NCBI GenBank assembly: GCA_015522475.1
Contig: WAMF01000003.1
Span: forward strand, 1-33,042
Direction: 5' to 3'
Length of the DNA: 33,042 nucleotides
Origin: Microcaldota archaeon
Lineage (GTDB): Archaea; Micrarchaeota; Micrarchaeia; Anstonellales; J096
Positions 6,157 through 31,460 of this stretch are shown here, piece after piece. The position numbers were made by a program, and so were the translations under genes. The notes under the pieces are model-generated. The model had not been told where the DNA came from. It saw nothing but the letters and a program-made list of their open reading frames with translations, and did not search any database. Within the stretch, counting starts at the first letter, position 1, and the number at the start of each line of letters is the position of its first letter.

Positions 6157-9100
6157 CTATTCACTTATCCATACGCTTTTCTCTTCTTCGTTGTAAAAGT
6201 GCCTAGCAGCTGCTTTCAACACAGCAAAGTAGAGCTCTTCTGAACTCATGGCTGCGCTTATGTCCGTAAATCTAGAAAGAAATGTTTCTGTTATGCTGTC
6301 AAACAAAACCCTTTCTTCTTCTGTTAGTTCTTCGCTGTTTGATAGCTCAATTGAAGCAAGTTGCTCCTTGACGTAATTGAGGCCTTTCTCAGGAATCGCA
6401 TATATAAGCTCATCTGTGAGCTTTTGATACTCTTCAGGATCTGAGATTATTCTTCTCTCTTCTTTGATGATCATAGAGGTTGTTGCCTTGATGACAGATT
6501 CGTCGAATTCTTCGGGCTCATTTTGTCCCCTATCATTATCGCCTTCATCAGCCTGCTCTAGCATTTCTGGCATTGCGTAATAATGTCTATTCTCTGGTAT
6601 AATGAAAAGCTTTGCTAGTTCAGGTAGTATTATCGTTCGTATATAGTCTCCTTGATCTTTCATAATTGCTCGCGTCTTGTTATCAAAGTTGTTGTACATC
6701 TTTTGTGTTATCGTATCCAGGTCCGCGGCAAGTTTTGAGTCTGGATTTATGCCTTTAATCCTCTCCTTGAGTGCAAAAACTTTGGCACTTATTTTTCTTT
6801 TAGCTACTTCTGGATCCACTTCACCCAATATAAGTTGCTTGCCTATCTTCCCAATCTCTTTGAGCCTCTTAGTATACTCCCTTAAAGTAATTGGAGGTCT
6901 GTGAGATGTATCAACAAGAGGCTCAGGAGGTTCCTTTTTATTGAATAAAGGCCTTTTAGAAATTGGAGGGGGTGTAATTCGACCCAGCGCTTTTTGATCC
7001 ACATTTTCCTGACTTGCACCTTCCGCATACTGGGAGAATATCTCTTTAACAGCTTCAAAAACCCTTTTCCTTTCATCTTCAAATGGCCACTCATATTGGA
7101 ATTGCTTTAGCCTGTTCTTCAACCAGTTTTTCACATCTGCGTGTCCCCCTGAAACAGCAATAGCATTCTTTGCCGCATCCTTGAGCTGTCCCTTGAAGTA
7201 ATCCAAAACATTCTCATCTATATGACTTTTAGTAAAAGCACGTGGAATCTCAAGTGAAAGTATTTTATCAATTTCTTCTATGAAAAGCGATGCCTTTGTG
7301 ACATCGGGCCTCTCTGCTTCCCTAGCTTGCCTTTCTTTTTCAGCTTTCCCCTCCTTGATCTTTTTCTCTACCTCTTTAAATTCTTCTGAGAGTTCTTCTC
7401 CAAGTTCTTCCAAGGACATTTCTTCCTCCCATCTAGCGATATCTTCATCTGTAATTGGAGGCATGGCTTGCTCTTCTTCCTCCTTCTTTAGCTGTTCATT
7501 TAGCTTCTTAGCTTCTTCTTCCTCCCTCTTAATCTCCTCCTCTATGTCCTTTACTTGAACATATAAATTCATAAGTTGAGAGGTCAGCTCAGCTACAATA
7601 GTCTCAAGGTTCTGCCTATCAAAGGAGCTTATCTTACTCCAAACAGACTTTTTAATCTCCTTGTGCATAGATGTACTTTTGGAGACACCTTTAAGTTCTA
7701 AAGGGTATAATATAGTTTCTAGAAGGTCATTCTCTATCCTGAAGTTCTTAAGGAATATGAAGAATGACTTAATCTGATCCTTTGCATCCTCAAAGTAGTA
7801 TGTGGACAAATTGCTCTTCTCTAAATCCTCTTTAATTTCGCTGGTGGCTTCCTTTATGGATGTAAAAATGGAATCTACGTTGTCCAAAAGTGCAACATAT
7901 AGCCAATGCAATCCGTCGATGTAAAACTCCTTCGTTTCTTTTAAATGCTTTAAATCTTCCCTCGAGATGACATTCTCTGAGAATTGTGTTATAGATTTAG
8001 ATATTGTTGATGAAGCCTTCTCTTTTTCTATTAAAAAAGAGTGTCTTGAATTATAAAGAACCACTGAAAATAGCAATTCTGCAAATTTATGATAAAAAAG
8101 TCTCCTTAGTCTTTTAAATGAGGTTAACTCTTTCTTAAGGTTCTCTTGAGAATTATGGGCTGGAATCTTCATCTTTTTTAAGGCAGTTACCCACATCTCT
8201 ATACTTGCAGCGGCATCCATCATTTTCATAGTGATTTGATGTTGGGAAGTAAGTGTAGAATAAGGTTTGGACGTTTGGGTTGTGCTATCAATATTAGAGA
8301 GCAAAACAAGCAAGGTTTCAATAGATTTGTTAATATCTTTTAAGCTTTCTCTCCCCAATGCTTGAAGGTTCTTTTCCTCTTTGGGTATCTCAGTTAAGAC
8401 TTCTAAATAATAGTAAGCAAGCACTGCTTTTATCTCTTGAGAGGGAATCTTCGAAATACTAATAGAGTTCTGGTTGAAAGCATTTAATAGGTACTTATAT
8501 AGGTACATCTTATCAATTCGCAATCCATTTTTCTTTGCCTTGAGAGGAAGCTCATAAAGCCTATCAAAAATGTTGAATACAGAATTTGCCGGGATAGTTT
8601 TCATGAACCAAGATGTGTGTACTTCTTGGATTTCACCTTTAGCCTTGTAAAATTGCGAAGACGAAGAGCTGAGGGAAGAATCTGTCTCACTCCCGGAAAA
8701 TACATTTTGGCTTATAAAATTTATAGCTTCGTCAACTGCCTCCTTATATATTGTTTCCCATTTTACTTCATATAAGTTTTCCTCTCCTGGTGCAGAAGGA
8801 GTGGCGTATCCTTCATACACATCACGTATGAGTTCTGTAAGAGTTTCCAAAAGGAAGTTTATTCTAATAGGTAGAGGAAGCTTCTTCGTTTTTTTCTTCC
8901 ACCATGCAGAGAAGCCCAACTCGAACCTCTTATCATTCCCTGAGAAGAATAACCCAGTAAAATTAGAATCTCTACCTAAAAATAAGAGCTTAAGAAGAGT
9001 AGTTTTGGCTCTCTCATATTCTCTATTGGGTAAAAAAGCAACGGCCTTTGCCTTTTTCAGTTCAGTTTGGTCCTCTTGGGGATTTATATCTGCTATTGCT

Positions 9101-9582
9101 TTCTCCAAAGAAACACCTTTCTCGGCTAAAAATTCTGCAAGTTCTTCTGGTCCTAAGAATAGCTCATGAGCATAAACCCCGCTCTTAGGTGGATTACCAT
9201 GTAGACTCTTAACAACCTTATCATACCAGCGCTTAGCTCTCTTTGCCAATGGGCTCTCCCGAGTAGATTTGTCCAACTTCCGTTCAGACTGAAAAGAAGG
9301 CAATTCTGACGTGTGCTTAGCAGAAAGATCTTTTTGAAGGTTTGTGATTACCCTTTCAAAGAACCCCCTATTATGAATAGCCATACTACCTTTGAATTCC
9401 TCTACAATAGCGGCTTGCACAAGATTGATGAATTCCTTATTAGACATGCCCTGCTTAAACCTGACGAGCTCTCTAGCAAGTGCCTCTGGAGTTGGTTGTC
9501 CTGGAGCTCCTAAGCGGTTAGCTGCTTGCCTTAATTTTTCCCTTATTGCGCTGAATTTAGCATCGCGCATATTAAATTCCAT
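6157..9582 (-). CDS. Very large coiled-coil orphan, 1141 residues
   Basis: I do not recognise this protein. It is hydrophilic, mostly helical and very rich in Lys and Glu, with no signal peptide or membrane segment, so it is probably cytoplasmic or a structural component. Residues ~670-760 form a strongly charged coiled coil (repeats of the type EEEIKREEEEAKKL and KEEEEQ). A Pro-rich linker follows at ~865-900 (ITPPPISKRPLF, KKEPPEPL), and a Glu-rich C-terminal region ends at the stop. The N-terminal ~100 residues contain helical stretches but no catalytic motif I can see. The minus-strand TATA box TTTAAAAA (9607-9615 region) is 27-29 bases upstream of the ATG. AT-rich codon use matches other genes of the block. 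Next to it is the 3' end of tRNA-Pro. It could be a structural or effector-like protein of an integrated element; this is inference. Confidence 0.75.
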   Translation of the reverse strand: MEFNMRDAKFSAIREKLRQAANRLGAPGQPTPEALARELVRFKQGMSNKEFINLVQAAIVEEFKGSMAIHNRGFFERVITNLQKDLSAKHTSELPSFQSERKLDKSTRESPLAKRAKRWYDKVVKSLHGNPPKSGVYAHELFLGPEELAEFLAEKGVSLEKAIADINPQEDQTELKKAKAVAFLPNREYERAKTTLLKLLFLGRDSNFTGLFFSGNDKRFELGFSAWWKKKTKKLPLPIRINFLLETLTELIRDVYEGYATPSAPGEENLYEVKWETIYKEAVDEAINFISQNVFSGSETDSSLSSSSSQFYKAKGEIQEVHTSWFMKTIPANSVFNIFDRLYELPLKAKKNGLRIDKMYLYKYLLNAFNQNSISISKIPSQEIKAVLAYYYLEVLTEIPKEEKNLQALGRESLKDINKSIETLLVLLSNIDSTTQTSKPYSTLTSQHQITMKMMDAAASIEMWVTALKKMKIPAHNSQENLKKELTSFKRLRRLFYHKFAELLFSVVLYNSRHSFLIEKEKASSTISKSITQFSENVISREDLKHLKETKEFYIDGLHWLYVALLDNVDSIFTSIKEATSEIKEDLEKSNLSTYYFEDAKDQIKSFFIFLKNFRIENDLLETILYPLELKGVSKSTSMHKEIKKSVWSKISSFDRQNLETIVAELTSQLMNLYVQVKDIEEEIKREEEEAKKLNEQLKKEEEEQAMPPITDEDIARWEEEMSLEELGEELSEEFKEVEKKIKEGKAEKERQAREAERPDVTKASLFIEEIDKILSLEIPRAFTKSHIDENVLDYFKGQLKDAAKNAIAVSGGHADVKNWLKNRLKQFQYEWPFEDERKRVFEAVKEIFSQYAEGASQENVDQKALGRITPPPISKRPLFNKKEPPEPLVDTSHRPPITLREYTKRLKEIGKIGKQLILGEVDPEVAKRKISAKVFALKERIKGINPDSKLAADLDTITQKMYNNFDNKTRAIMKDQGDYIRTIILPELAKLFIIPENRHYYAMPEMLEQADEGDNDRGQNEPEEFDESVIKATTSMIIKEERRIISDPEEYQKLTDELIYAIPEKGLNYVKEQLASIELSNSEELTEEERVLFDSITETFLSRFTDISAAMSSEELYFAVLKAAARHFYNEEEKSVWISE

Positions 9583-9755: not shown

Positions 9756-9828
9756 TGGGGCTGCCCGGATTTGAACCGGGATCACCACCGCCCGAAGGTG
9801 GCATGCTACCAGGTTACACCACAGCCCC
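9756..9828 (-). tRNA. tRNA-Pro (anticodon CGG)
   Basis: Read on the minus strand, the 73-base sequence folds as a tRNA. The acceptor stem is GGGGCTG/CAGCCCC with discriminator A. The D arm contains CCTGGTAGC. The anticodon stem CCACC/GGTGG encloses the loop TTCGGGC, so the anticodon is CGG, reading the proline codon CCG. The T arm is CCCGG-TTCAAAT-CCGGG. No intron is seen and CCA is not encoded. The 3' end faces the accessory block at 1-9600, the side on which elements integrating at tRNA 3' ends normally sit. Confidence 0.95.
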
Positions 9829-15666: not shown

Positions 15667-17187
15667 ATGCCAAGAGTAAAAAAGAAAGGGTCAAATAAGA
15701 AGGCCAAAACAGTAGTGAAAGGGGCTAAGGCCAAGAAGAGTAAAAAAAGCAGCGTCGTTACTTATGGCGGTTATAACTACATAGACAAGAACTATAAACC
15801 TAGTAAAGAGGACTTTGTCGTCTGGATGTGGATGAAAGGAGAGAAGCCACTTCCTATATTGGCTGAAGCTGTAGCAGCCGAAAGCTCCGTCGGCACATTC
15901 ACAAAAATAAAGACAATGAATAAGCGAGTATTCACGCATTACAGAGCGCATGTATTCGAAGTTTTGCCAGTTCAAGACAACGCTGGCTTTGTAAAAATAG
16001 CTTACCCCTTTGAACACTTCGACGCCAAAAATCTTCTCCAATTCGAAGCAAGTGTCTTAGGAAACATTTTTGGTATGCTCGAGCTTGACGAGCTTTACGT
16101 TATAGACATCGCCTTTCCCAAAAAATTCCAGCGCTACTTCTCTGGCCCAATAGGCTTGAATGCCATAAGAAAATACTTGGGCACAGACAAAAACAAGAGA
16201 CCCCACGTCGGCACAATCGTAAAGCCCAAAGTTGGCCTAACACCCAAGGAGTTTGCCCACGTCGCCTATGAGGCATATATAGGTGGCCTTGACCTCGTCA
16301 AAGATGATGAGAACTTAGTGGATCAGCCCTTCTGCCCTTGGAAGAAGCGCTTCGACGAGGTTTATGCAGCTCTAGACAAAGTAGAAACAAAGACGGGCGA
16401 GAAGAAACTCTATGCCACAAATATATCTGACATAAGCCTCGAGAGAATGTTGGATAGGCTTGACTACGTAGCTGAGAGCGGCGCCAAAATGATAATGTTA
16501 GATGTATTCGTAGCTGGGCCTGCAGTTGTTAAAATGATAGCAGAGGAAGCCCATAGGAAAGGCCTTTTCGTGCATGCACACAGAGCTGGATACGCAGCTA
16601 TGCACAGAGGACGCTACGGCTATTCATTCGGCATATTGGCAAAGCTATATAGGCTACTCGGTGTGGATCAGCTACACGTCGGCACTGGCGTTGGCAAGAT
16701 GGACGGCAGCCCTACACTCATACGTCATTTCGGCAGCATTGTCCGCGACAGAAAGCTGAAAGAGAGCTGGTTCCCATTCAGCTTATCTATGGAGTATGAA
16801 AAACACGTGGCGAAGACATTCCCTGTAGCTAGTGGTGGTCTTCATGCAGGTTTAGTAGAAGGCGTCGTTGAGATATTTGGCACAGACGTCATAATACAAG
16901 CGGGTGGCGGCGTCCATGGACATCCTCGAGGTACAAGAGCAGGAGCTGAATCTCTAAGAGCAGCGGCAGAAGCAGCAGCAAAGGGCATAAGCATAAAAAC
17001 GGCTGCCAAGCGAAACAAAGCCTTAAAGGAAGCCATCGACCACTTTGGTTTTGTGCCTAGAGAACACGTAAGGGCTATGTTGAATTTTGGCTCAAGAAAT
17101 AAGAAAACGCTCGAAGCCATGATAAGGAAGGGTGGCTACGACGTGGCGAGAATGTTTGATAAAACGCTGGATCCAAGAGGAGATTAA
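15667..17187 (+). CDS. rbcL: RuBisCO large subunit, form III-like
   Basis: A 506-residue ribulose-bisphosphate carboxylase. In archaea form III enzymes normally work in AMP/nucleoside salvage, converting ribulose-1,5-bisphosphate plus CO2 to two 3-phosphoglycerates. Active-site residues are present: Glu72/Thr77 in AAESSVGTFT, Asn133 in GNIFG, Lys186/Lys188 in TIVKPKVG, the carbamylated Lys212 with Asp214/Glu215 in GGLDLVKDDE, His305-Arg306 in HAHRAG, loop-6 Lys344 in VGKMDG, and Ser389-Gly-Gly. Two oddities stand out. Loop 6 has Asp346 where Glu is usual. About 32 extra residues precede the fold, almost all Lys, Ala, Ser and Gly. Partner genes of the AMP pathway (AMP phosphorylase, ribose-1,5-bisphosphate isomerase) are not in this window. 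Confidence 0.95.
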   Translation: MPRVKKKGSNKKAKTVVKGAKAKKSKKSSVVTYGGYNYIDKNYKPSKEDFVVWMWMKGEKPLPILAEAVAAESSVGTFTKIKTMNKRVFTHYRAHVFEVLPVQDNAGFVKIAYPFEHFDAKNLLQFEASVLGNIFGMLELDELYVIDIAFPKKFQRYFSGPIGLNAIRKYLGTDKNKRPHVGTIVKPKVGLTPKEFAHVAYEAYIGGLDLVKDDENLVDQPFCPWKKRFDEVYAALDKVETKTGEKKLYATNISDISLERMLDRLDYVAESGAKMIMLDVFVAGPAVVKMIAEEAHRKGLFVHAHRAGYAAMHRGRYGYSFGILAKLYRLLGVDQLHVGTGVGKMDGSPTLIRHFGSIVRDRKLKESWFPFSLSMEYEKHVAKTFPVASGGLHAGLVEGVVEIFGTDVIIQAGGGVHGHPRGTRAGAESLRAAAEAAAKGISIKTAAKRNKALKEAIDHFGFVPREHVRAMLNFGSRNKKTLEAMIRKGGYDVARMFDKTLDPRGD

Positions 17188-18237: not shown

Positions 18238-19839
18238 TCACACCCCCATACTCTTCACACTGAAGTGCAACTTGCCTTTGCTTTTTAGCTCATCCACGAT
18301 TTGGCTGAGCAGCTTGGCTTTTATTGAGAGATACTTTTCCTTCTCAAGGGCTAAGTTGCCTATAGTATAGCGCGCGCCTTTTAAATGCTGAGAGAACATG
18401 ACTTCTGTGCTTCCATCTATGTCGTGGCTGAAGTAGATATCACTGCTGTTGGAGCAGCGGTCTGCTCCAACAGTACGCTGTAAGTTCTCGTTTACATCGC
18501 TGTTTATGATGAAGGAAGAGTTGGTGGTGAAAAAGCTGCCGAAGATGTAGCTGGAGGAAGGACTGCCTATGTAGTTATAAGCCGCTACTTTATTGTCCAT
18601 TGCATGCATATAATAAGCAACATCCCTTGATATATGTGCAGCTGGAACATCGCACACGTTATAGCTTTTATATCTAAGGCTTTGGCATATGTATGCAATG
18701 CTTCCTATCCGTTCCATAATAGTTCCTAAAGAAAGAATGTCATTAAGTTCAAGATGAACCTTTGCTGCATACTCTACCTCTGCTTGGACAATAATCCTCT
18801 TTTTTATATTCGATTTCCATAAGTTGTGATAGAGGACTTTATAAAATACAGCAGTTCTCCCTGAAGGAGTTGTGGTACGTAAAGGTTCTCCAACTCTTTT
18901 TTGACGCAAATAATCCTCTAGCTCGCTCAATTCAAAGGGTTCGCCCAAGAGAATCGTCGTCGTTTTTTTGAATCCCTCTTTAATGGGTTCAAGTGTACAC
19001 TTCTCACTTTCCACAGCTTCTTTTTTGATTCCTTCTAAAGGTAGCAGTTGGGCGGAGCTTCCTTCAACAAGTTCAATAGTGGAGGGAAAACGCTTATCTT
19101 TGATTAATTTGTCTCTTATTTGCTCCAGGAGCCCTTTCTTAACTTGCAGATATTTCTCCTTTGATAGTTGAAGATTGCCTATAACATAGCGTTTTCCTAT
19201 TTGATTGAATGAAAACATAACCTCATTACTATCGAAGATGTAATGGCTAAAGTAAATGTCTGAAACGTTTGCAAAATAGTACGCGCCTACCCCCCTAGTT
19301 ATATTAGCTCCATAAGATGATCGTATAGAAAATTTATATTCTAAGCCATTTCCACTCCCAAAGACATACTTACTGCCATCTCTCATCCATAATGTGTAAG
19401 CTATGTAGCTTGACCCTGTTATGCCATATGACCTATATACAAATGTGGAATTAAATACGGAATCACTTTCTTCGACCCATGCACTTCTTCCCAGTACAAC
19501 ACTCGCTCGATAGTACCATCTTTCTTTCCATGCATCTAGAATGGTATCAATATCTTTTATCTCATCTATTGAAAGGGGTTCAATTTTTTTATTTTTTAGT
19601 AGGTCGTATTCGGCAAATTTAACATCCTTCTTATAAAAAGGGGCAAAAATATAAACTTCCTTATCTGTTAACTTTGACTCAACAGCCTTTCTCCACGCGC
19701 CATATTCAGGAGAATAATATTCCTTGAATATTTCTTTCAGCCAAGGCTTATATTCGCTCAACTCGCCTACCTCATCCCCTAGCACGATCTTACAGGTCTG
19801 CTTCCACGCTTGGTTGAGCTTTTCATACAACTCACTCAT
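18238..19839 (-). CDS. Two-module repeat protein, paralogue of the left-edge gene
   Basis: A 533-residue relative of the protein at 1-1611. The first ~25 codons are closely similar even at DNA level (KLNQAWKQTCKI, VGELSEY). It has two copies of the same unit. Each opens with a helical segment (AWKQTCKIVLG; GFKKTTTILLG) and contains a Ser/Tyr-rich stretch around YxFGS. Each closes with NVSDIYFSH/NSSDIYFSH...EVMFS...KRYVIGNLQL/ARYTIGNLAL..KEKY and a helix K..LLxQI. I chose the ATG at 19839 because AGGTGAGG precedes it; an ATG at 19863 is eight codons upstream. Function unknown. It follows the orphan at 19891-20706 by about 50 bases and lies in the same run as the transporter genes. Confidence 0.8.
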   Translation of the reverse strand: MSELYEKLNQAWKQTCKIVLGDEVGELSEYKPWLKEIFKEYYSPEYGAWRKAVESKLTDKEVYIFAPFYKKDVKFAEYDLLKNKKIEPLSIDEIKDIDTILDAWKERWYYRASVVLGRSAWVEESDSVFNSTFVYRSYGITGSSYIAYTLWMRDGSKYVFGSGNGLEYKFSIRSSYGANITRGVGAYYFANVSDIYFSHYIFDSNEVMFSFNQIGKRYVIGNLQLSKEKYLQVKKGLLEQIRDKLIKDKRFPSTIELVEGSSAQLLPLEGIKKEAVESEKCTLEPIKEGFKKTTTILLGEPFELSELEDYLRQKRVGEPLRTTTPSGRTAVFYKVLYHNLWKSNIKKRIIVQAEVEYAAKVHLELNDILSLGTIMERIGSIAYICQSLRYKSYNVCDVPAAHISRDVAYYMHAMDNKVAAYNYIGSPSSSYIFGSFFTTNSSFIINSDVNENLQRTVGADRCSNSSDIYFSHDIDGSTEVMFSQHLKGARYTIGNLALEKEKYLSIKAKLLSQIVDELKSKGKLHFSVKSMGV

Positions 19840-19890
19840 TAACCTCACCTTTACATCACTCACCTTTGCAAAATCTTAATCTTAACTCCA

Positions 19891-20706
19891 TTAGTTATTT
19901 GTATTACCTCTTCCTGCATCCTCTAAATTCCTGTTTGAGAAGGTATTAAAACCTTCGCCATAGAGCACGTCTATGTTTTTCTTGCCGTTGGCTATTTCCT
20001 CCTGTATCCCCACTTTCACAATGTACTTGCCATCAGATATAAGGAAAGCTTTGGAGAAGCCCTGTTCATGAATGGGTTGAGCAAAAGGCGTGCTTTCAAA
20101 CGCTATCTTAGGAACAATGTTCCAGCGCTTCTCGCCATATACAACAAAGAGCATATCTCTGAATAAAACAAATGCCACGCCTTTATCTAGGAAAAGTTTG
20201 GCTCTACCTGCGCCTTTTGTTTTAAACACGCTTTTATGTGCAACACCGTCTTGTATGCTTGCATAACTTTGCCCTTCCTCGTCGTACATGAAAAAGCTAT
20301 CGTCTCTGCAAGCAGTTTGCACGGATTTCTGCCTGTCGTTAGGAGAAGCCAACGAAGGCATATTCTCAAGCTTAAGTGTTCTCGTCTCTATAGAAAACTC
20401 TTTATTTAAGAGAACTTTCACAAAAATGAGGTAGCCCTGCTTCTTCTCCCATATAAAGAAGCTAAGCTCATCCTGTGCATCTCTGCCTTTAAAGAGCTCA
20501 CCGCTGAACTCGTCCGCTTTTATATTTAGACGCTTTGGACTTATCAAGTATATAAGGTCACCTATTCTAAGCTGCACGAGGCCCTCTTCCATGACAACCT
20601 TGCCTCTCTTGAACGTGAGCTCTTGCGACAATTGAGCAAGGCTTTCTCCAACTTCCTTGGCCTGCTTACTGCCTTCGGCGTCGCGCGCCCTTTTAGAGCT
20701 TCCCAT
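19891..20706 (-). CDS. Orphan beta-rich protein, 271 residues
   Basis: I do not recognise this protein. After a short charged N-terminus it is largely predicted beta strand (GLVQLRIGDLIYLISP, GVAFVLFRDMLFVVYG, AFLISDGKYIVKVGI), suggesting a beta-sandwich or propeller-like fold. There is no signal peptide, membrane helix or catalytic motif. Its first ATG (20718) lies inside the upstream PAS-like gene; the ATG at 20706 is preferred because GGGAGAG precedes it at good spacing. The overlap with the upstream gene implies translational coupling, so it may act with the PAS-like protein. Confidence 0.7.
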   Translation of the reverse strand: MGSSKRARDAEGSKQAKEVGESLAQLSQELTFKRGKVVMEEGLVQLRIGDLIYLISPKRLNIKADEFSGELFKGRDAQDELSFFIWEKKQGYLIFVKVLLNKEFSIETRTLKLENMPSLASPNDRQKSVQTACRDDSFFMYDEEGQSYASIQDGVAHKSVFKTKGAGRAKLFLDKGVAFVLFRDMLFVVYGEKRWNIVPKIAFESTPFAQPIHEQGFSKAFLISDGKYIVKVGIQEEIANGKKNIDVLYGEGFNTFSNRNLEDAGRGNTNN

Positions 20707-22228
20707 AATCTCTCCCATAAAAGTAGGCCTTTAGCGTGATGAGCCTTAGCTCGATGTACGAAGCACCATCATCATCTTCAGCATACGCTTTGCCTCCATC
20801 TGCACGCGGCTTAAGTGGCTCAGATGCAAGAGCCGTGTAGACAGTAGCTGTGTGGCGAGGCATGTGGTTTGCATGGGGAGTTAAAACGGCCAACTTGCCC
20901 CCCTCTTCTAACTCTGTTTTATACGCGCTATGCACTTCTGTCTCTCTTCTGAGCGTTCTTTTTCTCTTCTTCCCTTTGTATGCATTTTTCACGCTTTCCA
21001 AATTCATGTTTGAGGCATGTGAAGAAACGACTGTTGTGCTTTTTTCTTTTGCCTTTTCTGACGGGCTTTGCTTCTCAAGAACCTTTTTCATTCCCTCCCT
21101 CATATCAAGCCTTGCCTTCATAGGCGTCTCGCTCTGTTTATAGGCAAAAGTGCTAGAGGTTATTATATCGAGCCTTTGCTTTTCTCTCTGCTTCATTCTT
21201 TGTTTTGTGTTCTGCTGCATGTTTCGCTTAGGCTGGAAAGAGACAGAGGGAGTATCTCCTCCATCTCTATCCCAGTCTTCTTGTGGATAGTCAGCATTCG
21301 TAGCAGTTAAAGGTAAAGATAAAGATAAACCTTTTTCGTAACAGGTGCATGGCTCGTCAGATGAGGCATCTGGGTTATATGTTGAAGCAGAAGATAAAGG
21401 CTCAAGCAGAGGCTGTAGAAAGCCATTAAACACTGTAGAGAGAGCCAGCATACTACTCTCTCTTATACTTCCCATGTGCCGCTTTTCATAGAGGTTTGCA
21501 AATGAAGCTCTGCTTTTTGGCCTTATATAAATGAGCCTTCTTTTAGAGCGTTTCAGCTTGAGAAGGAGTTTTCTCTTCTTGGCAGAGATGGCGAATGTGA
21601 AGTTAACAGAGAGAAGCAAAAGGGCCTTCTTCCCATTGAATGAAGTGGGTAAGTAGAACACAGCATTCTTTGCAAAGCTGGCGCTGTCACAGGGCAACTC
21701 GTCCTTCTTTTTTGCGTCTATATATGAAAAGAGACGCTTGCCCGAGAGAGCCGCATGAAGAATGTGGGCAAACTGCTTCCTATGCTTCTCGTCTGTTATG
21801 AAGGAGAACATATTTTGGCCGACGAATTCCTCTTTTTCTTTGACCTTCGCTTCCTTGCCCGTTTCCTCCTCCCACATCTTGGCATTCTTAGCCGCTTGAT
21901 TGTTGGCATAGAGCACAGTAGCATCTTCACCTACAACAAAGCTCGTTATATGCACAGTTTGAAGCTCATCCTCGTCTAGGCCATCGAAGCTCAGCGATAC
22001 AGTTTCCTCGCCAACGTTAACGTCTACACGTCTCTCATAGTAAAGCGTATCTATGCTGGAAGACAGTTTTTCTTTCTCGTCGAGCTCTTGAAGCTCAACA
22101 TTCACCTTAAAGCGCTCAAATTCCATCTTAGCTCTGCCGTTGAAAGGGTTGAGCTTCTTCTGCCTAGAAAATGACGACGAGATAGCTCTTTTGAAGCTCG
22201 TAAAGAAGTGCTTAATAGATGGAGCCAT
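20693..22228 (-). CDS. PAS-domain-like protein with disordered basic tail
   Basis: A 511-residue protein. Residues ~95-215 resemble a PAS sensor domain: FVVGEDATVLYANNQAAKNAK, then FVGQNMFSFITDEKHRKQFAHILHAALSG. This matches the usual PAS order of strand, 'N-x-A-A', 'G-x-N/D-h-h-x-h-h', helix and 'G'. I see no histidine kinase, cyclase or DNA-binding domain. The C-terminal ~200 residues are low-complexity, rich in Lys, Arg, Gln and Ser (MQQNTKQRMKQREKQRLD) and probably disordered. Its ATG shares one base with the stop of the AAA-associated-domain gene (TAATG), so the two are coupled, and it overlaps the next orphan. A sensor or scaffold linked to the transporter is plausible but inferred. Confidence 0.6.
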   Translation of the reverse strand: MAPSIKHFFTSFKRAISSSFSRQKKLNPFNGRAKMEFERFKVNVELQELDEKEKLSSSIDTLYYERRVDVNVGEETVSLSFDGLDEDELQTVHITSFVVGEDATVLYANNQAAKNAKMWEEETGKEAKVKEKEEFVGQNMFSFITDEKHRKQFAHILHAALSGKRLFSYIDAKKKDELPCDSASFAKNAVFYLPTSFNGKKALLLLSVNFTFAISAKKRKLLLKLKRSKRRLIYIRPKSRASFANLYEKRHMGSIRESSMLALSTVFNGFLQPLLEPLSSASTYNPDASSDEPCTCYEKGLSLSLPLTATNADYPQEDWDRDGGDTPSVSFQPKRNMQQNTKQRMKQREKQRLDIITSSTFAYKQSETPMKARLDMREGMKKVLEKQSPSEKAKEKSTTVVSSHASNMNLESVKNAYKGKKRKRTLRRETEVHSAYKTELEEGGKLAVLTPHANHMPRHTATVYTALASEPLKPRADGGKAYAEDDDGASYIELRLITLKAYFYGRDYGKL

Positions 22229-27316: not shown

Positions 27317-27832
27317 TTATTCTATAACCACTGTATTGCCATTGTAATAAATTTTGATGCTCTGCATACCCGGACGTTTAAGCTTGTCTGTGTTGTGAAG
27401 AACAAGAGGTGCATTAACATATTTTGCAAACTCGCTACTGCTGCTTTGCACGACAAGCATGCTACCCCCTGCCTTTGAATCAACGCGCAGAGTCTTGACG
27501 CCCTTAGGCACATTTACATAGAGAGCAATGTAGCTTGAATTGCCTGAAAATGCCACCATGTTGGCGGCGCTTGCCAATGTATCTGCATAGTTGTCCATGA
27601 ATGTATTTTGGGACATGATGACGCTGCCTTTAGCCTGAGTATAAACGTAGAAAAGAATGGGGATGAAAATGGCCAAAACAAAACCCACAACCACAAGCAA
27701 CTCAAAGGAGACCTGACCTTTACGCTGCCCTTCAAGGCCTTTGGGATTGCCAACCCCCACGAGCATATTTATAGAGGTATTGTATGCTTTCTCATCAGAT
27801 TCCTTGAATTCCTTCACTCTCCTCACTCTCAT
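27317..27832 (-). CDS. Type IV pilin-like protein with class III signal peptide
   Basis: A 171-residue exported protein. The archaeal class III signal sequence is plain: RKG|QVSFELLVVVGFVLAIFIPILFYVYTQA fits the Q-x-S-x-E-x-L motif, with cleavage expected after Gly39 by a prepilin peptidase of the EppA type. The hydrophobic segment then forms the N-terminal helix that polymerises or anchors the protein, and the remainder is a beta-rich extracellular domain. Translation may start at ATG 27832, which overlaps the stop of the CBS gene (TAATG), giving a long 39-residue leader. It may instead start at ATG 27766, giving a 17-residue leader, more usual for this class. No pilus ATPase or membrane platform gene is nearby. 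Confidence 0.8.
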   Translation of the reverse strand: MRVRRVKEFKESDEKAYNTSINMLVGVGNPKGLEGQRKGQVSFELLVVVGFVLAIFIPILFYVYTQAKGSVIMSQNTFMDNYADTLASAANMVAFSGNSSYIALYVNVPKGVKTLRVDSKAGGSMLVVQSSSSEFAKYVNAPLVLHNTDKLKRPGMQSIKIYYNGNTVVIE

Positions 27833-28932
27833 TACCCCTCTCCATATTCTTCTATAACCTCAACGATGCTCTCGCCTTTCTTTTTAGAGAGCTCTTTTAT
27901 TTTTCCGGCAGCCCTTTCCAACGTATCCATAAGCCTATTGACAGCGGGCATAATATCATAATCTTCGTCGTGGAATCTGTAGCGGCGACCGTTAAGCTCA
28001 ACAGTCAGATCAAGCCTATACACACTCTTACCCTCTTTTATACGCAGATAAGCATGGCCCACCTCAAACATCTTTGCGAGCTTTGCCAAAATTCTGGAGA
28101 GCTCCTCCTTTATGTCGTCGTATAATATGCCCTCGTCTTCTGGCAAGCCCGAGATAATAATTTGAGGTCCTTCTGTCATTGCCTTTAAGACAAGAGCAAG
28201 AACATCTCTCACAGGTATGACACCCAGAGGTCTGATGCCTTTGGCTGGGTTTTCGACGACGGCAAACGAACTCCCTGTCTCAGCCAGCTTTTTAACAACG
28301 TCCACGAGGCACTCTGTCGGTGCTACCAAAACAAGCAATCGCTTGTTTACAAAATCACCTACTTTATACCTACTTCGCAAGCTCGCCTTTAGCTCAGGTG
28401 CAAAACGAAGAGGCATTAAATCAAACGTCGAAACCACACCTATAACCTTAGAGTGTTCTCTCACAACAAGATGGGAAACGGCAAGCTCCTTCATTAGAGC
28501 CCGCAGCCTACCAATTGTCTCATTTGAGCTTATTGTATACGGTGGCGTCTTCATAACAGTTTCTGCAGTCACGCGAGGCACAAGGTTCTGAGAGAGCAAC
28601 TCCTCGAGAAGGTCACTCCTTTTTATGTAGCCTAAAGCTTGTCCCTTACTGTCGACAACGGGCAAAGCCCTAAAGTGATTTGTAGAGAACTTGTGAAGCA
28701 AATCCTCTAAACCCACATCCTCTTTAAGACGAGGGGCCTTTATAGCCACTCTACCAGCCTTGACCTGGGAAGTATCACCTAGAATACGCGAGAGATGCCT
28801 CTCGTCTATAATGCCATAGAGCTTCTTATCCTTAATCACACCAACGATATCCTCCACATGCTTAATTTTTGAGAGCGCTTTAGAAAGCGGATCTTTAAAG
28901 TCTACGAGGGGCAAATCGTGCAATTCTATCAT
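27832..28932 (-). CDS. Four-CBS-domain protein with HPF-like C-terminal domain
   Basis: A 366-residue protein with four CBS motifs in two pairs. They occupy about residues 1-60, 65-118 (ALPVVDSKGQALGYIKRSDLL), 120-180 (VSHLVVREHSKVIGVVSTFDLM) and 195-252 (PLGVIPVRDVL). CBS pairs usually bind adenosine nucleotides as energy sensors. The last ~100 residues (PQIIISGLPEDE...YRLDLTVELNGRRYRFHDEDYDIMPAVNRLMDTLERAAGKIKE) look like the ribosome hibernation-promoting-factor/YfiA fold, with the typical alternating strands and closing helix 'DxxxAVxxxxDxLERxxxKxKE'. A nucleotide-sensing ribosome-binding factor is the favoured inference. The start ATG 28932 has a TATA box 27 bases upstream. The stop overlaps the pilin-like gene. 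Confidence 0.82.
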   Translation of the reverse strand: MIELHDLPLVDFKDPLSKALSKIKHVEDIVGVIKDKKLYGIIDERHLSRILGDTSQVKAGRVAIKAPRLKEDVGLEDLLHKFSTNHFRALPVVDSKGQALGYIKRSDLLEELLSQNLVPRVTAETVMKTPPYTISSNETIGRLRALMKELAVSHLVVREHSKVIGVVSTFDLMPLRFAPELKASLRSRYKVGDFVNKRLLVLVAPTECLVDVVKKLAETGSSFAVVENPAKGIRPLGVIPVRDVLALVLKAMTEGPQIIISGLPEDEGILYDDIKEELSRILAKLAKMFEVGHAYLRIKEGKSVYRLDLTVELNGRRYRFHDEDYDIMPAVNRLMDTLERAAGKIKELSKKKGESIVEVIEEYGEG

Positions 28933-30064: not shown

Positions 30065-30095
30065 CCCCCTGCCTTCAAAGGCATGTGGTGAAAAC

Positions 30096-31460
30096 ATGAA
30101 CGCAGAAGAGCTTTTAGACAATATCCATACCCAACGCATAAAGTGGGTACAGCTTCAATTTCCAGACGTAAACGGTACACTGAAAGCCAAAACTATAGGC
30201 GCGCAAACACTCACAGTGAATATGCTCAAGGAAGGCATTATTGAAGGTGATGTGGCAGGGCTCTTTTCTGAGTTTGGAGTCAACGACCTCATATTAGTGC
30301 CTAGAACAGAGACTTACGGCACGCTCCCATGGGGTGCAGAAACGGCTAGAATGCTGGCAAAGGTGAAAAAAGGCAAGGACGAGCGCTATTTGAAAGACAG
30401 CATGTATCCGCTCGAGAGAGCTCAAGCGGCCTTCGAGACGGCAGGCAAGGGAAGGCTAGCTGTAACTCAAGAGGTAAAGTTTTACTTCACCGACGGTATA
30501 ACCATAGATACAACACCAGGCAGAGAAGCTATAACATTCAATTCGAAGGAGGCGAAGTGGAATCCAGCTGCACTTAAGTCTGCATCCGGCTTTGCATTTG
30601 CCACAGACCCGCAAGACGCGTATTCTCTCGTGAGGCAACAGATAGCAGATAGCTTGAACACAGCCTTTGCGTACGTCGTGAGTGGGCATAGCCACGGAAG
30701 CGTAGCTGCTCAACAAAAAATAAGCTTGGATCAGCTCTCTCCGCTCGAGGCAGCAGATGCTTTTGCCACGCTGAAGCTTGTGGCAAGAGCCGCAGGTATG
30801 GTAAATTTAGCTATTCCTACATTTATGGCCCTACCCTTCTCGGCTGATGACGGGGCTGTGCCTAATGGATACAGGTTAAGCTTCTCTTCCTACCTAAAAG
30901 GCAGCAACGTCTTCTACGACGCTACAGACAAGCACGGCTTAAGCCAACTAGCCTACTACTTTATAGGTGGTATCCTAGAGCATGCCGAAGCGCTCTCGCT
31001 CTTCACAAACCCCACGGTCAACTCTCACAAGAGGCTATGGGTCGAACCCAAGTACAGCTCAGCAGGTGTCGGCGACGCCCATAACAGCGTAGACATCAAT
31101 CCTTCAAAGAGAGACTTCCACATAACACTGCAAAGCCCAGATCCCCTTGTCAATCCTTACTTAATGTTAGCAGCTGTCATTGCAGCTGGCGTCTACGGCA
31201 TAAAGAAGAAAACACAAGCTGATATCTTATCAGACAGCCCGCTTGTCTTAAGCGAATCGACAAGGAAGAGACATCATGCGACAGAGCTGCCAAGAACAGT
31301 AAGTGATGCGGTCTCTGCTTTAGACAGTGACAACGAGTTCCTCAACGGCATCTTTTCCACAGACATTGTCTACGCCTACACAGAGCTGCGCGTCCATGAG
31401 AACAAAGAAGCGAACTTTAGGCCATCCACCTACGAATACATGAAGTACTTCCACTTCTAG
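30096..31460 (+). CDS. Glutamine-synthetase-fold protein, probably catalytically inactive
   Basis: A 454-residue, full-length homologue of glutamine synthetase. Fold-level motifs persist: WVQLQFPDVNGTLK, AADAFATLK, PTFMALPF, FIGGILEHAEAL, TNPTVNSHKRL and SPDPLVNPYLMLAAVIAAGVYGI. Active-site residues, in E. coli numbering, are mostly replaced. Glu131 is Lys128, Glu212 is Gly201, Glu220 is Lys208, His269 is Arg260, Glu357 is Thr344 and Arg359 is Gln346. The Arg339/Arg344 region reads HNSVDINP. Glu129 (Glu126) and Arg321 (Arg313) remain. Metal and substrate sites are thus essentially gone although the frame is intact, pointing to a retained non-catalytic role (regulatory, scaffold or ligand sensor). 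The ATG at 30096 follows GGTG and a TATA box. Confidence 0.9.
   Translation: MNAEELLDNIHTQRIKWVQLQFPDVNGTLKAKTIGAQTLTVNMLKEGIIEGDVAGLFSEFGVNDLILVPRTETYGTLPWGAETARMLAKVKKGKDERYLKDSMYPLERAQAAFETAGKGRLAVTQEVKFYFTDGITIDTTPGREAITFNSKEAKWNPAALKSASGFAFATDPQDAYSLVRQQIADSLNTAFAYVVSGHSHGSVAAQQKISLDQLSPLEAADAFATLKLVARAAGMVNLAIPTFMALPFSADDGAVPNGYRLSFSSYLKGSNVFYDATDKHGLSQLAYYFIGGILEHAEALSLFTNPTVNSHKRLWVEPKYSSAGVGDAHNSVDINPSKRDFHITLQSPDPLVNPYLMLAAVIAAGVYGIKKKTQADILSDSPLVLSESTRKRHHATELPRTVSDAVSALDSDNEFLNGIFSTDIVYAYTELRVHENKEANFRPSTYEYMKYFHF

Follow-up and report, generated by a model that had tools for sequence, protein, structure and literature searches.

A glutamine synthetase homologue without its catalytic residues in two families of Candidatus Anstonellales

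The locus described here raises the question of whether a gene with the complete frame of a glutamine synthetase (GS) and a changed active site still encodes that enzyme and, if it does not, what it has been kept for. The window, that is, the whole stretch of 33,042 nt that was analysed, belongs to a Candidatus Micrarchaeota metagenome-assembled genome (MAG) of 910 kb, which is 88% complete with 4% contamination. This genome is placed in the order Ca. Anstonellales, in a family other than Ca. Bilamarchaeaceae, and the two are described as sister families. The type of Ca. Bilamarchaeaceae (GTDB f__UBA10214), of the same order, is Ca. Bilamarchaeum dharawalense, represented by the MAG LFW-283_2 (PMC8561730). 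The window's genome was found to hold one GS homologue and no second GS. Residue calls were made by aligning the proteins in MAFFT to E. coli GlnA, whose sequence came from its genome record, and are given in mature E. coli numbering. The functional roles of the ligand and arginine positions are those which we take to be established for the Salmonella and Mycobacterium enzymes. The features of the locus were collected in Table 1.

Table 1 Features of the degenerate GS locus, with positions in the window
Feature	Position	Strand	Description
TATA-like box, archaeal, TTTAAAAA	30057..30064	+	39 nt before the ATG; read from the sequence
GGTGA motif, like a ribosome-binding site	30087..30091	+	just before the ATG; read from the sequence
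Pseudo glutamine synthetase (GS) gene	30096..31460	+	454 aa, ATG start, intact ORF; class I, beta-type insertion kept
N-terminal beta-grasp domain	30138..30371	+	residues 15-92; D50' still Asp, S53' changed to Gly
Catalytic-fold domain	30411..31448	+	residues 106-451, complete through the C-terminal helix
E126 (E129)	30471..30473	+	sole metal ligand retained; alignment
K128 (E131K)	30477..30479	+	metal-ligand position; alignment
G201 (E212G)	30696..30698	+	metal-ligand position; alignment
K208 (E220K)	30717..30719	+	metal-ligand position; alignment
R260 (H269R)	30873..30875	+	metal-ligand position; alignment
Site of deleted flap, between V316 and E317	31041..31046	+	3 residues lost, including catalytic E327; gap at E327 in 51/51 members
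A328, D333 (R339A, R344D)	31077..31094	+	replace ATP/phosphate arginines; alignment
H342, T344, Q346 (R355H, E357T, R359Q)	31119..31133	+	replace R355, E357, R359; alignment

Fold and active site of the window protein

The gene encodes a full-length GS homologue, as a sequence-only reading of this DNA had held, since its intact frame of 454 aa was matched end to end by the Pfam and TIGR00653 models. The catalytic domain model Gln-synt_C (PF00120) scored 180.8 bits over residues 106-451, against a gathering cut-off of 24, while Gln-synt_N (PF03951), with 32.4 bits, fell just below its cut-off of 33.4. The TIGR00653 GlnA model aligned over the whole length with 236.7 bits, short of its equivalog cut-off of 429.15. 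An AlphaFold monomer predicted with the family alignment (pLDDT 84.9, pTM 0.88) contained the GS elements through the last helix, and the copy of Ca. Bilamarchaeum was predicted to have a similar fold (pLDDT 84.7, pTM 0.87). The top PDB matches of the predicted fold were GSI subunits, with TM values of 0.80-0.88. By the score of its catalytic domain and by its predicted tertiary fold, the window protein is a member of the GS fold family.

The five substitutions of metal ligands claimed from the sequence alone (E131K, E212G, E220K, H269R and E357T) all proved exact in the alignment with E. coli GlnA. One of the six ligands scored (E129, E131, E212, E220, H269 and E357) is thus present. The arginines around 339-359, likewise said to have been replaced, were found as R339A, R344D, R355H and R359Q, and N264D and H271S are further changes. 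None of the features of an active type I glutamate-ammonia ligase (the equivalog score, the set of six ligands and the E327 flap) was found in the window protein, which is almost certainly not a glutamine synthetase.

Distribution, descent and selection of the family

The order Ca. Anstonellales was sampled with 83-84 genomes, among them 10 from the window's family and 43 from Bilamarchaeaceae, and all relatives are MAGs. With the Pfam HMM, a single GS homologue was found in each of the 10 genomes of the window's family, always of the degenerate type, referred to here as pseudo-GS. Among Bilamarchaeaceae, pseudo-GS was present in 41 of the 43 genomes, at full length except in G081, where it is cut by a contig end, and a further genome outside the 41 (G053) has, at the end of a contig, a C-terminal fragment of pseudo type. 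When named genomes were scanned with a profile, 38 Candidatus Micrarchaeota copies were obtained, LFW-283_2 included, together with two probable non-members, and the 38 copies were matched by sequence identity to the Bilamarchaeaceae set of the whole-genome searches. A scan of the named genome contigs with a single protein gave no match, unlike the profile scan.

A canonical GS was found beside pseudo-GS in 25 of the 41 Bilamarchaeaceae genomes (22 complete, 3 partial) and was missing from the other 16. Pseudo-GS is therefore the only GS match in 26 of 51 genomes, namely all 10 of the window's family and these 16. Incompleteness could explain the absence of a canonical GS in single genomes, but hardly in 26, several of which are 92-95% complete.

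The 51 pseudo-GS proteins of both families formed one clade, with bootstrap/SH-aLRT support of 99/98 in the careful tree, and the canonical proteins nearest to it were Micrarchaeota GSI genes. The canonical Bilamarchaeaceae copies fell into two other lineages (one E. coli-like, one f5-like), neither of them sister to the pseudo clade, and are therefore not the duplication partner of pseudo-GS. No member of the pseudo clade had an intact site. The pattern is common to 51 genomes and is therefore not the artefact of one MAG. One metal ligand is kept in 30 members, two in 18 and none in 3, the maximum being two of six. At position E212, all 41 Bilamarchaeaceae copies have Gly, and the copies of the window's family have Gly (6/10) or Ser (4/10). 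R339 is retained in 3 of the 41 Bilamarchaeaceae copies and in none of the residues listed for the window's family. The glutamate ligand R321 is Arg in 10/10 copies of the window's family and Arg or Lys in 38/41 Bilamarchaeaceae copies. The GSI-beta insertion around E. coli 145-160 is retained in the clade.

In most members, a substitute Glu, Asp, His or Cys within four columns of E220 or E357 was not found. The exceptions are columns +2 and +4 of E220, where an acidic residue, His or Cys is present in about half of the Bilamarchaeaceae copies and in 8/10 copies of the window's family, respectively. Most Bilamarchaeaceae members also had no such substitute within four columns of H269, and position 269 itself is Glu in five copies of the window's family. 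Near E212, the only candidates are H209 and H211, which are present in active GS too. Apart from the Glu at position 269, the sequence alignment of the 51 members showed no Glu, Asp or His near the lost ligands that could consistently compensate for them.

Partly degraded homologues were observed outside the clade. In other Micrarchaeota families, two proteins (L143 in genome G109 and L144 in genome G110) have lost E212, E220 and H269 like the pseudo clade, but unlike it they keep R339, R344, R355 and R359, and Glu or Asp at position 357. Both lie outside the pseudo clade on the tree, and a common origin, with both joining it, was weakly rejected in an AU test (p = 0.032). From their sequences, they look like either earlier stages or parallel, separate losses, and the number of separate losses depends on a tree with long branches. 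Genome G109 carries a canonical GS (L161) besides L143. A very divergent degenerate GS homologue (L060, genome G011, L060:3445-4749) was seen in a third Ca. Anstonellales family; it has E212A, E220C and H269R, lacks E327 and sits on a long branch, and its membership of the pseudo clade had an AU p value of 0.34.

Sister pairs of pseudo-GS with dS of 0.36-0.9 had dN/dS values of 0.07-0.10 (G068/G051 0.091, G070/G065 0.088, G055/G076 0.071), about the same as the 0.075-0.13 of canonical GS in similar pairs of the same data, which indicates strong purifying selection on the close copies. Within the window's own family, dS was saturated for all pairs but one. The canonical-invariant residues are better kept outside the pocket than in it, at 64% vs 29% in Bilamarchaeaceae (Mann-Whitney p = 0.0008) and 52% vs 21% in the window's family (p = 0.002). 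Pocket entropy in Bilamarchaeaceae is 1.84 bits, compared with an average of 1.31 for the same proteins and 0.17 for the pocket of active GS. Near-invariant residues specific to the pseudo clade include Q182, Q207, K100 and W155-x-P157-S158. Some pocket residues are conserved in Bilamarchaeaceae, namely E/D131 (40/41), E/D129 (35/41), K/R264 (37/41) and G265 (41/41). The combination of E/D at 53', 129 and 131 with K/R at 264 occurs in 29 of the 41 copies and is lost in the window's family. The earlier proposal that a gene free of frameshifts and stops is retained for another role was upheld by the 51 homologues, the low dN/dS, the promoter and ribosome site and the conserved framework, and the product is very probably a functional protein under selection.

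Upstream elements and gene surroundings

Of 50 pseudo-GS genes, 78% were preceded by a box resembling TTTAWAWA (at least 7/8 matches), compared with 34% in mononucleotide shuffles, and this box mostly lies 38-41 nt upstream. Most of the upstream regions listed also have the motif GGTGA before the start. Read from the sequence, the positions of the two elements suggest a short leader and one gene with one promoter.

A comparison of the gene neighbourhoods of 52 loci revealed no neighbour gene conserved family-wide. As a way to a partner, gene linkage gave local clusters only, with a divergent phosphomannomutase-like gene at 17 of the 52 loci and PdxS at 5. PII signal proteins were absent from 82 of 83 genomes in an order-wide search. 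The lack of a conserved neighbour and the missing PII proteins therefore argue against a link to classic nitrogen control. Each genome in the window's family has 0 or 1 class-I glutamine amidotransferase, and three have none; the one in G000 lies within a 525-aa frame of CTP-synthase size. With so few of these enzymes, the family seems to have little need for glutamine chemistry.

Other genes of the window were also recorded. A form III RuBisCO large subunit of 506 aa is encoded at 15667-17187 (+); it scored 438.8 against the PRK04208 cut-off of 438 and 422.8 against the rubisco_III equivalog cut-off of 497, and is therefore divergent. An ORF of 1141 aa at 6157-9582 (-), which has no Pfam or NCBIfam match, adjoins a tRNA-Pro gene (9756-9828, -). 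Three consecutive ORFs are found at 18238-22228 (-), of which those of 541 aa and 511 aa have no Pfam match. A CBS-domain protein of 366 aa is encoded at 27832-28932 (-), with a weak C-terminal match to the ribosome hibernation factor HPF/YfiA (TIGR00741, E 6.5e-4), and G001, a genome of the same genus, has a homologue of it close to pseudo-GS.

Proposed function and comparison with known systems

Across the family, the catalytic residues of GS type have been lost and the fold has been retained, and the gene is a single unit preceded by promoter-like elements of its own. The best explanation overall, to which we give about an even chance, is an old and conserved family of GS-fold pseudoenzymes of Ca. 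Anstonellales that would be non-catalytic and would form a putative homo-oligomeric binding ring. Judging from the subunit framework and the C-terminal helix, which keep their length and conservation, pseudo-GS would still build a GS-like ring, and this ring would act by binding, with its outer surface as a scaffold or adaptor and with no catalysis. The role of scaffold or adaptor, for which the oligomer and the partner are extrapolated from monomer models, falls a little short of an even chance. Two points stand against this reading: no gene association indicates a partner, and the conserved pocket residues of Bilamarchaeaceae (129, 131, 264 and G265) would not be needed by a pure scaffold. 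In that family, salt bridges between Lys or Arg at 264 and the acids at 53', 129 and 131 may replace the structural role of the metals; the charge pattern would fit such bridges or a local ligand. Across the clade, no part is less conserved than the pocket, and a common small-molecule chemistry is therefore unlikely.

The pocket residues of Bilamarchaeaceae also bear on the possibility of a ligand sensor, in which the remodelled pocket would bind a metabolite (e.g., glutamate, glutamine or a nucleotide) and the ring would signal to a partner without catalysis. Active Bacillus GS, which passes a signal to GlnR and TnrA, is the model for such a role. The charge pattern in 29/41 Bilamarchaeaceae copies, the presence of G265 in all of them and the retention of a basic residue at R321 in nearly all copies of both families are in its favour. 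Against it, variability is on average highest at the pocket positions, the window's family has lost the charge pattern and no conserved neighbouring regulator was found. We consider a sensor unlikely, though worth some weight as the second candidate.

The sequence-only reading had named a decoy subunit beside a ring scaffold and a ligand sensor. A regulatory or decoy subunit that lowers or tunes activity in mixed rings with active GS would agree with the canonical GS, complete or partial, of 25 Bilamarchaeaceae genomes and with the predicted retention of the fold and the C-terminal helix. However, the co-occurrence expected of such a subunit was not found: pseudo-GS is kept without an active GS to poison in all 10 genomes sampled from the window's family and in 16 of Bilamarchaeaceae, and mixing is therefore not its general role. 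Since the active copies fall into two lineages that are not sister to the pseudo clade, a matched partner interface is also unlikely, and we regard this subunit role as improbable.

A new enzyme on the GS fold, whose active site would lack metals or lie elsewhere, is given an equally small chance. The metal ligands, which are kept in the GS-type ligases known to us, were lost without clear substitutes, and no pocket constellation is conserved clade-wide. On the other side stand the family-specific conserved residues (Q182, Q207, W155-x-P157-S158 and K100) and the enzymes for other substrates in the GS superfamily, such as the glutamate-putrescine ligase GlnA-2 of Haloferax (PMC8394153). A gene in decay or an artefact of metagenome assembly, which might be suspected from data that are all MAGs and from the completeness and contamination of the window's genome, is refuted by copies free of stops and frameshifts in 51 independent genomes, by dN/dS of about 0.07-0.1 and by the conserved promoter elements, and its probability is negligible.

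Returning to the non-catalytic binding ring, a wider course of events is plausible, although we give it less than an even chance. In two Micrarchaeota families, a vertically inherited GS of bacterial type would have become a conserved non-catalytic ring that serves the whole cell as a scaffold or as a sensor of metabolites. Where genome reduction went furthest, this ring would have outlived active GS, and some Bilamarchaeaceae would later have regained an active GS from two other lineages. If this is true, a pseudoenzyme of central nitrogen metabolism is more widely kept than the enzyme itself. The cells that host pseudo-GS have genomes of about 0.5-1.6 Mb, and the partly degraded homologues in related families would show step by step how a central enzyme turns into a pseudoenzyme. 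Homology-based annotation would label these genes glutamine synthetase, and reconstructions of nitrogen metabolism for these archaea are therefore probably wrong; judging from sequence, 26 seemingly GS-positive genomes would carry the inactive form only.

Among known systems, class I GS (GlnA, GSI-beta) shares with pseudo-GS the complete fold, the domain order, the beta-type insertion and structural motifs (FTNPTxNSYKR-like and DP-x-x-NPY). The difference lies in the loss of at least four of the six metal ligands, the deletion of the E327 flap and the loss, in most copies, of R339, R344 and R359. To our knowledge, the metal sites are intact in ligases of the GlnA-2 type and in gamma-glutamylpolyamine synthetases. 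These non-GS members of the GlnA superfamily, including the Haloferax glutamate-putrescine ligase, resemble pseudo-GS as GS paralogues in other roles in archaea and bacteria, but they are working ATP-dependent ligases (PMC8394153, PMC8998196). No published case of an inactive archaeal GS was found among the open papers searched, which is weak evidence of absence.

By analogy, the closest precedent is lengsin (LGSN) of the vertebrate lens, a class I GS homologue that reportedly assembles into a ring and has a structural role. Both would be class I GS homologues re-used without GS activity, which for pseudo-GS is read from its sequence. Like lengsin, the archaeal protein was found to be a GS homologue without catalytic residues and under purifying selection, a likeness in working for which no common descent is claimed. 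In the trees built from the prokaryotic sequences, the pseudo clade groups with GSI homologues of Micrarchaeota, and the likeness to lengsin is one of description. Lengsin is eukaryotic, tissue-specific and of an unrelated lineage, whereas archaeal pseudo-GS extends across two families and is present in genomes that lack GS.
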